NCBI GenBank assembly: GCA_013389115.1
Contig: JACADY010000043.1
Location: 17,731 to 81,730 of the forward strand
Direction: 5' to 3'
Source: Alphaproteobacteria bacterium
GTDB lineage: Bacteria; Pseudomonadota; Alphaproteobacteria; Micropepsales; Micropepsaceae
Length of the DNA: 64,000 bases
The notes beneath the pieces are model-generated. The model did no database searches. It was not told the origin of the DNA and was given only the letters and a program-made list of their open reading frames with translations. Below are positions 17,686 through 19,010 of this stretch, one piece after another (within the stretch, counting starts at the first letter, position 1; every line of letters starts with the position of its first letter). The position numbers were made by a program, and so were the translations under genes.

Positions 17686-17715
17686 AAACGCCCCGGGTTT
17701 GACCCCGGGGCGTTA
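17686..17715 (-). terminator. Terminator of the outer-membrane protein gene
   Basis: ACGCCCCGGGgtcaaaCCCGGGGCGT followed by TTTTCTTATT on the minus strand. Confidence 0.85.
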
Positions 17716-17748: not shown

Positions 17749-18894
17749 TCATTCCTCTTCGCCGCCGAATGCAATCTCATAGGTGAGAAGAGCGGTGAAG
17801 AACTCGTCATCCGTGCCGGCATTGTCCTCGTAACCGCCGACGCCGAGATCGAGGCCGAGGCCAAAGTCAAAGGCATAGCCGGCGGAGAGCTGCCAGAACT
17901 CCTCATCGACATCGCCGCCGACATAGAGGCCGGGGTCCTCGGTGTCGCGATCGCCATAGACGGCCGCGACATTCCAGGGGCCGGCGGTAAGACCAAGTCC
18001 GAGCGTGAGGACCGATTGGTCTGCGCCTGGCGCGCTTGCCGCGTCGCCAAAGCCGACCGCGTCCTCGCTATGGGCCCATTCGACGACCGGCGTCAGCACG
18101 ACCCCATCTTCTTCATTGATGACGAAATCCCAGCTTGCCGCCAGGAGATAGGCGTCCTGGTCAGAGAGATCGCCTGCGCCACCCGCCTGGTGCATGAAGG
18201 CGCCGTGCAGGGTGAGGCCCTTAGCGCCAAAGGCATCGCTGAGGCCGGCATTGATGACGAAGTTGGACAAATCCTCGGTGTTGCCGATGCCGCCATCGGC
18301 TTCGTCGAGCTCGCCGCGGCTCTCAAAGGCGCTGTCCGACAGGAAGGTCGTATCGCGGAAAAAGGCCGAGCCGCCGATGAGGAATGTGCCCGCGCCGTCC
18401 GTTTCAATCTCTGCAGAGATACCAGCGCCGATGCGCTCGGTCACTTCCACATCCTCGGCGAACAGATCGCCAACGACGCCCGGCACCACATCGACCGCAT
18501 AGGCGAAGGCGGGCGTGAACTTGCCCAGCGTGATCGTCACGGGATCAAGCGCGATATCCGCCTTCAGCGTCTCAACAAAGAGGCCATGGTCCTCAAACGC
18601 GCGATCCTCGTAGGGATCGAGGTCCTCCACCGGTTCAAACACGAGACCGGCGGTGAAGGAGAGCCATTCATTCGCCTCCAGCACGAATTCGGGTTCGATC
18701 GTGAAATAGAGGTCGCTCGCCTCATTGCCGGGCGCCGTCGAATCATAGGTGTTGTCGTATTGCAGTTCGATCGGGATCACGCCGGAGAAGGCGGGATAAT
18801 CATGTTCGTGATCATGCGCGAACACTGTCGCAGGCGCCAAGCCAGCCAGAATCGCGGCGGTTGCGGCCGCGCCCCGCCATTCAAACCTTTTCAC
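17749..18894 (-). CDS. Acidic outer-membrane beta-barrel protein with His-rich mature N-terminus (LbtU-like porin class possible)
   Basis: Signal peptide ending VFA, then HDHEHDYPAFSGVI; alternating beta-strand pattern with FTAGLVFEP, ITLGKFTPAFAYAVD; terminal strand FTALLTYEIAFGGEEE. Confidence 0.65.
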   Translation of the reverse strand: MKRFEWRGAAATAAILAGLAPATVFAHDHEHDYPAFSGVIPIELQYDNTYDSTAPGNEASDLYFTIEPEFVLEANEWLSFTAGLVFEPVEDLDPYEDRAFEDHGLFVETLKADIALDPVTITLGKFTPAFAYAVDVVPGVVGDLFAEDVEVTERIGAGISAEIETDGAGTFLIGGSAFFRDTTFLSDSAFESRGELDEADGGIGNTEDLSNFVINAGLSDAFGAKGLTLHGAFMHQAGGAGDLSDQDAYLLAASWDFVINEEDGVVLTPVVEWAHSEDAVGFGDAASAPGADQSVLTLGLGLTAGPWNVAAVYGDRDTEDPGLYVGGDVDEEFWQLSAGYAFDFGLGLDLGVGGYEDNAGTDDEFFTALLTYEIAFGGEEE

Positions 18895-18985
18895 GTCACA
18901 TCTCCCCTCAATCCAAGAAAGTCACCGTTGCGAACCTTTTAAGCGAGGCGCGCGAAGTTGCAAGTGGTTCTCACATGCACAATCT

Positions 18986-19010
18986 GATAGTGATATACTA
19001 TAACATTATC
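18986..19010. promoter_or_regulatory. Candidate Zur box
   Basis: GATAGTGATATA-C-TATAACATTATC, 12-bp arms with 2 mismatches; right arm TATAACATT matches the Zur half-site. 92 bp upstream of the CDS start at 18894. Confidence 0.6.

Follow-up and report, generated by a model that had tools for sequence, protein, structure and literature searches.

A putative Zur-repressed, TonB-independent porin and its zinc- and iron-linked relatives in Alphaproteobacteria

The locus and its Zur box

The window (the whole stretch of DNA analysed, 64,000 nucleotides of a draft alphaproteobacterial genome) carries on its minus strand a gene for a predicted outer-membrane porin, with the following features.

17687..17714, minus strand: intrinsic terminator with an 11-bp stem and a T-rich tail (fold z = -3.7)
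17749..18894, minus strand: porin gene, 381 aa, GTG start (from the open reading frame and its translation)
18436..18516, minus strand: L3-like constriction loop, residues 127-153, strands 5-6 (from the strand order in the model and the alignment)
18799..18816, minus strand: mature N-terminus HDHEHD, a candidate zinc-ligand tail on the periplasmic side (from the sequence)
18817..18894, minus strand: signal peptide, residues 1-26, ending VFA (read by eye; unstructured and of low confidence in the model)
18902..18909, minus strand: Shine-Dalgarno-like GAGGGGAG, 7 nt before the GTG (from the sequence)
18991..19005, minus strand: Zur box core TGTTATAGTATATCA, a 7-1-7 dyad with one mismatch to TGTTATAnTATAACA; the extended 25-bp dyad spans 18986-19010

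The product starts with MKRFEWRGAAATAAILAGLAPATVFA, followed after the cleavage site by HDHEHDYPAFSG. Both the signal peptide ending in VFA and the mature start HDHEHD, as given in a preliminary description of this DNA, are present in the translated reading frame; the cleavage site was judged by eye only, without a signal-peptide program. The ribosome-binding site GAGGGGAG is rated good. The rnr gene, co-directional with the porin gene, ends 137 bp upstream, and two NUDIX genes lie downstream. The first of these begins past the terminator, a GC-rich hairpin (17714-17687) that is located 3′ of the porin stop codon and followed by TTCTTATTCT; this arrangement agrees with the proposal of a monocistronic gene with a strong terminator.

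The full palindrome at 18986-19010 reads GATAGTGATATACTATAACATTATC. Its 15-bp core is the sole site in the window with at most three mismatches to TGTTATAnTATAACA; shuffled sequences lead one to expect 0.06 such sites, and none with one mismatch or fewer. In Sinorhizobium fredii, the Zur box is a 15-bp 7-1-7 palindrome, as shown by EMSA (PMC7029138), and Paracoccus Zur binds a similar 15-bp motif (PMC5387054). The dyad had been placed 92 bp upstream of the gene; the closeness holds, but the distance to the GTG at 18894 is 91 bp when counted from the 25-bp dyad.

The draft genome (2.79 Mb) was scanned by a mismatch-limited pattern search with a reversed control pattern and no weight matrix. Two sites have at most two mismatches, namely the porin box, which is the best, and TGTTATAACGTAACA on contig 37, immediately 5′ of znuC-znuB-znuA; at this threshold, the control pattern gave no site in the whole draft genome. 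At up to three mismatches the scan is uninformative (4 real versus 12 control sites), and since the real pattern is not enriched there, it is the two best sites that carry the argument for a Zur box. With the draft only 88% complete, additional Zur sites may have escaped the scan. The expectation that a Zur pattern would pick out znuCBA and the porin gene together was thus met, as was the assignment of the dyad to the Zur pattern, its core being one mismatch from TGTTATAnTATAACA and the best site genome-wide. Three FUR-family proteins are encoded in the genome. The one on contig 15 has best PDB matches that include 4mtd (E. coli Zur; 5e-26) and 7dh7 (5e-34), and is, judged by these matches, Zur.

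The same-genus orthologue in RI_48 lies in the same block as the window gene (topA-rnr-[box]-porin-NUDIX-NUDIX-MFS), and the two best sites in that genome, each with one mismatch, are again those of znuC and the porin. A missing palindrome upstream of orthologues would have counted against the original proposal; the RI_48 orthologue is boxed. In a two-sequence promoter alignment the boxes are out of register. The box is therefore conserved in presence, not in position, being closer to the start codon in the orthologue.

Predicted fold, acidity and the histidine-rich tail

The AlphaFold2 model (29 sequences; pLDDT 83, pTM 0.82) is an open 16-stranded barrel. It begins at residue 35, with about nine residues preceding the first strand, and there is no plug domain; TonB coupling is therefore not expected. 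In porins, a long loop (L3) folds into the pore. In the model, strands 5 and 6 are joined by a long loop (residues 127-153); this L3-like stretch lies within the most conserved, acidic region of the family (GDLFAEDVEVT, then ERIG). The closest folds in the PDB are those of general porins (OmpK36, TM about 0.6) and of substrate-specific channels (chitoporin, Occ family). A barrel model cannot show ion selectivity.

The match to Pfam Porin_4 (PF13609) is borderline, at 27.1 bits for a cut-off of 27; no NCBIfam model matched the protein, searching PDB sequences with the profile of the family returned nothing specific, and a profile search gave no match to the TonB-receptor family. The protein is predicted to belong to the general 16-stranded porin fold class, borderline to Porin_4, and the earlier idea of a TonB-independent outer-membrane channel is supported in so far as the predicted fold is open and lacks a plug. 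Two other classes were considered. A ZnuD-type TonB-dependent receptor is ruled out by the length of 381 aa, the 16 modelled strands and the absence of both an N-terminal plug and a TonB-receptor match. The suggested comparison with LbtU-family porins found no support: NF033652 (cut-off 90 bits) does not match the porin, and only a sub-cut-off match of 16.5 bits occurs elsewhere in the genome.

With 39 Asp and 34 Glu among its 355 residues, the mature protein (pI 4.05) is indeed very acidic, as had been remarked. As a zinc signature, this acidity (73/355) fails; iron-linked relatives (see the next section) are equally acidic, with a mean pI of 4.15 versus 4.96 for Zur-linked ones, and the trait is family-wide.

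The HDHEHD segment had been interpreted as a zinc hook. Both termini of a 16-stranded porin barrel face the periplasm, so that the segment would sit at the mouth of the pore on the periplasmic side and away from the cell surface. It is absent from the direct orthologue, where the C-terminus is His-rich instead (FGEEHHH). A tail with at least three His among the 25 residues that precede the barrel is present in 5/15 Zur-linked homologues, compared with 0/22 iron-linked and 1/34 other ones (Fisher p = 0.0012). Since this enrichment spans only about two lineages, the association with Zur is merely suggestive. What can be retained of the hook is that His-rich N-terminal tails recur among Zur-linked members; they are not universal, and their location would be periplasmic.

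Zinc- and iron-type contexts in the family

Of 385 genomes sampled from the class, 45 have homologues; 30 named loci also yielded them, with Sneathiellales, Rhodobiaceae, Roseovarius and Hwanghaeella among the taxa represented. Only 8/29 family members match Porin_4 at E ≤ 0.1, and relatives on plasmids are annotated as ‘porin’ or ‘hypothetical protein’ only. The zinc/iron-linked family has a conserved core of its own (RxFxDHGL...GKFxPxFG...ERIG); it is an unnamed alphaproteobacterial family without a specific Pfam or NCBIfam model. Single homologues at L054, L040 and L035 come from records assigned to cyanobacteria (Leptolyngbya and a filamentous isolate) and to Oceanobacillus, and may reflect alphaproteobacterial contamination or transfer.

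Genomic contexts were taken from 76 porin loci (1.15 Mb). About 16 relatives are Zur-linked, either by a box just 5′ of the gene or by the porin being the last gene of a znuCBA or znuA operon. A box lies directly 5′ of the window gene, the RI_48 orthologue, the homologue in a Sneathiellales genome, and those at L116, L117, L118, L119 and L121. At L116 the porin follows zur-znuC-znuB, with znuA divergent, and at L117 it is divergent from a znuA. The order znuC-znuB-znuA-porin is found at L096, L106, L110, L111, L131 and L133, and znuA-porin at L103 and L124; all of these porin-terminal operons except that at L106 have a Zur box with at most two mismatches at the operon head. Across the 76 loci, 18 sites have at most two mismatches, versus none for the control pattern. 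Half of these (9/18) are located no more than 300 bp upstream of a porin, in regions that together make up 1.9% of the sequence (binomial P = 1.5e-11, with the reservation that related loci are not fully independent). In six genomes with a Zur-linked porin, 12/15 sites with no more than one mismatch are at genes for Zur-linked porins, znu, zur, ZnuA-family or DUF1007-NicO proteins. The genomes G202, G298 and G374 were judged on such sites and their neighbours, because at up to two mismatches the control pattern outnumbers the real one there.

A second type of context is found at 23 loci, where the porin is in or beside a cluster of imelysin, di-haem oxidoreductase, imelysin and DUF1513 genes (Pfam-checked; L019, L028-L033, L035, L036, L041, L042, L047, L048, L053, L085, L088-L090, L097, L099-L101 and L105). 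An imelysin-cluster porin is annotated in L152 and L153. Imelysin-like proteins have been implicated in iron uptake (PMC3143127). A role in iron is likely, since the Phaeobacter cluster additionally contains genes for HemP, a (2Fe-2S)-binding protein and bacterioferritin. The open-access literature yielded no account of an outer-membrane porin that belongs to this presumed iron system. These sister porins differ from the window porin in their iron-type context, in having no Zur box at the porin, and in lacking a His-rich tail; only one iron-type locus is boxed at all, and that box is 8.5 kb away. Zur-linked and iron-type contexts are almost never mixed among the relatives, and the remaining ones (35/72 tree rows) have neither.

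On a maximum-likelihood tree of 72 rows, built by a quick method and with several deep branches unresolved, separating the Zur-linked rows from all others takes six label changes (shuffled mean 13; 0/500 shuffles as low), and two changes suffice when only Zur-linked and iron-linked rows are compared. Three genomes (G001, G168, G374) have one copy of each kind. The small number of changes and the occurrence of both kinds within single genomes suggest old, metal-specific porin lineages, not random placement. A single Zur-linked member, L020 / L027 from Sneathiellales, groups with the iron-type rows. Within about 230 bp upstream of this gene there is a Zur box and, nearer the gene, a Fur-like AT-rich dyad TGATAGTCATTCTCATTATTA recognised by eye; given these two elements and its place on the tree, it may be dually regulated.

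A proposed zinc entry route and its alternatives

In the preferred reading, which is given a probability of roughly three in four, the product is a TonB-independent porin, repressed by Zur, through which the zinc permeability of the outer membrane rises during zinc starvation; Zur binding and zinc permeation are both inferred. Zn-loaded Zur on the dyad at 18991-19005 would, by strong inference, block transcription of the porin gene, and a drop in zinc would derepress it together with znuCBA. The open barrel with its acidic constriction loop is inferred to allow passive diffusion of Zn2+ or small zinc complexes into the periplasm, where His-rich ZnuA would act as a sink, binding zinc for delivery to ZnuBC. 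That the HDHEHD tail aids this handover to ZnuA is speculation.

Control by Zur had been proposed from the window alone, and is backed by the genome scan, by boxes at the same-genus orthologue and at distant homologues, and by porins that come last in Zur-boxed znu operons. Although neither expression nor binding data exist, the gene is very probably switched on at low zinc, because its box is the same as that of the zinc importer and because its relatives lie within zinc-import operons or, in the sister branch, next to genes for iron uptake. Sequence comparison shows the box, the fact that znuCBA shares it, the porin class, and the presence of relatives in operons with znu genes; a general porin could, however, be Zur-controlled for another reason. 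A broader hypothesis, on which the odds seem even, is that the family has split into metal-dedicated lineages, one tied to Zur and ZnuABC and the other to imelysin/di-haem oxidoreductase iron systems, each serving as a TonB-independent gate; the zinc lineage would repeatedly have gained a His-rich tail on the periplasmic side, from which ZnuA receives zinc.

The substrate might not be free Zn2+. A Zur-controlled, substrate-specific channel for a secreted zincophore or an organic zinc complex, with the His tail stripping zinc at the periplasmic mouth, would be in keeping with fold matches that include chitoporin and the Occ family beside general porins, and with the possibility that the imelysins beside the iron-linked sisters act on iron species, not free ions. 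It is nevertheless unlikely; no metallophore genes were seen adjoining the porin gene or its Zur-linked homologues in the stretches examined. There is still less to recommend a non-conducting scavenger or store, with a barrel that binds zinc either on the surface or within the periplasm. The 73 acidic residues among 355 and the HDHEHD start would suit such a role, but the same acidity in the iron-linked relatives (mean pI 4.15), a model that is that of an ordinary open porin, and repression by zinc, which favours import over storage, all argue against it. Of the two functions first suggested, ‘scavenger’ is thus less likely than ‘entry channel’, with the proviso that zinc transport itself is inferred.

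It is also conceivable, if only just, that a different FUR-family regulator (of Fur, Mur or Irr type) occupies the dyad and that the porin serves iron or manganese. The genome has three FUR-family genes, sister porin lineages occur in iron-type clusters, and Zur-boxed L020/L027 has the Fur-like AT-rich sequence nearer its start (by eye). Against this, the genome has no further close site except that at znuCBA, other genomes carry the same sequence at zur, znu and ZnuA genes, and the sequence matches the 15-bp 7-1-7 Zur box of S. fredii (PMC7029138).

Zinc entry across the outer membrane is usually ascribed to unspecific porins or to TonB-dependent receptors. ZnuD-type TonB-dependent receptors are 22-stranded and plugged. 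ZnuD and Caulobacter ZnuK, ZnuL and ZnuM, Zur-controlled TonB-dependent receptors for zinc (PMC4176598, PMC6103462), resemble the window porin in their link to Zur and in the outer-membrane zinc acquisition inferred for it; the window model, in contrast, has 16 strands and no plug. A table of Zur regulons lists TonB-dependent receptors as the outer-membrane members in Alphaproteobacteria (PMC6103462). The siderophore porin LbtU, like the window porin in the preferred reading, is a TonB-independent outer-membrane barrel for a metal, but differs in both metal and regulator. The general Gram-negative porins of Porin_4 share the predicted fold class, with only a borderline match.

Zinc-regulated porins and metal-dedicated channels are already known, the examples being MspD and MnoP, respectively. 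MnoP needs no TonB receptor and is controlled by Mur. In Bradyrhizobium japonicum it is the outer-membrane channel for manganese (cited in PMC6011978); if the proposed function holds, the window porin too is an alphaproteobacterial outer-membrane metal channel, but one for zinc, not manganese. Mycobacterium smegmatis induces MspD when starved of zinc or when zur is deleted, and the protein has been implicated in outer-membrane zinc entry (PMC13098993). It is likewise a TonB-independent porin linked to zinc starvation and Zur, but of the mycobacterial MspA type and highly similar to MspA, whereas the window porin is a predicted 16-stranded Gram-negative one, members of whose family occur within or next to znu operons. 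Nothing on this porin family, on its placement in znu operons or on its iron-linked sister lineage was found in the open-access literature, which mostly excludes subscription journals; this absence is no proof. If true, a Zur-controlled porin within znu operons would amount to a dedicated passive zinc gate in Gram-negatives. The zinc- and iron-wired paralogues of one family, sometimes in one genome, would also make metal selectivity in porins testable by comparing paralogues, loops and tails.

Zur boxes were also observed at other genes. In the window's own genome, a gene for an OmpA-like outer-membrane protein (L017, G000:C37, 8272-9396, plus strand) is transcribed divergently from znuC, with the Zur box in the intergenic region between them. 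At L139 (G161:C10:5895), a perfect box lies 5′ of a gene for a secreted protein (ORF from 1922) whose N-terminus is coiled-coil-like; the protein matches no Pfam family and may be a further unnamed envelope protein under zinc control. At corresponding positions in L136 (G202:C1:66819) and L150 (G374:C1:861869), a Zur-like box with one mismatch is situated between divergent genes for a response regulator and a GTP cyclohydrolase II-like protein (by eye). Finally, a perfect box precedes DUF1007 and NicO-family genes (Pfam-confirmed) at L137 (G298:C1:693358), an arrangement that presumably resembles that of the ZevAB zinc importer.
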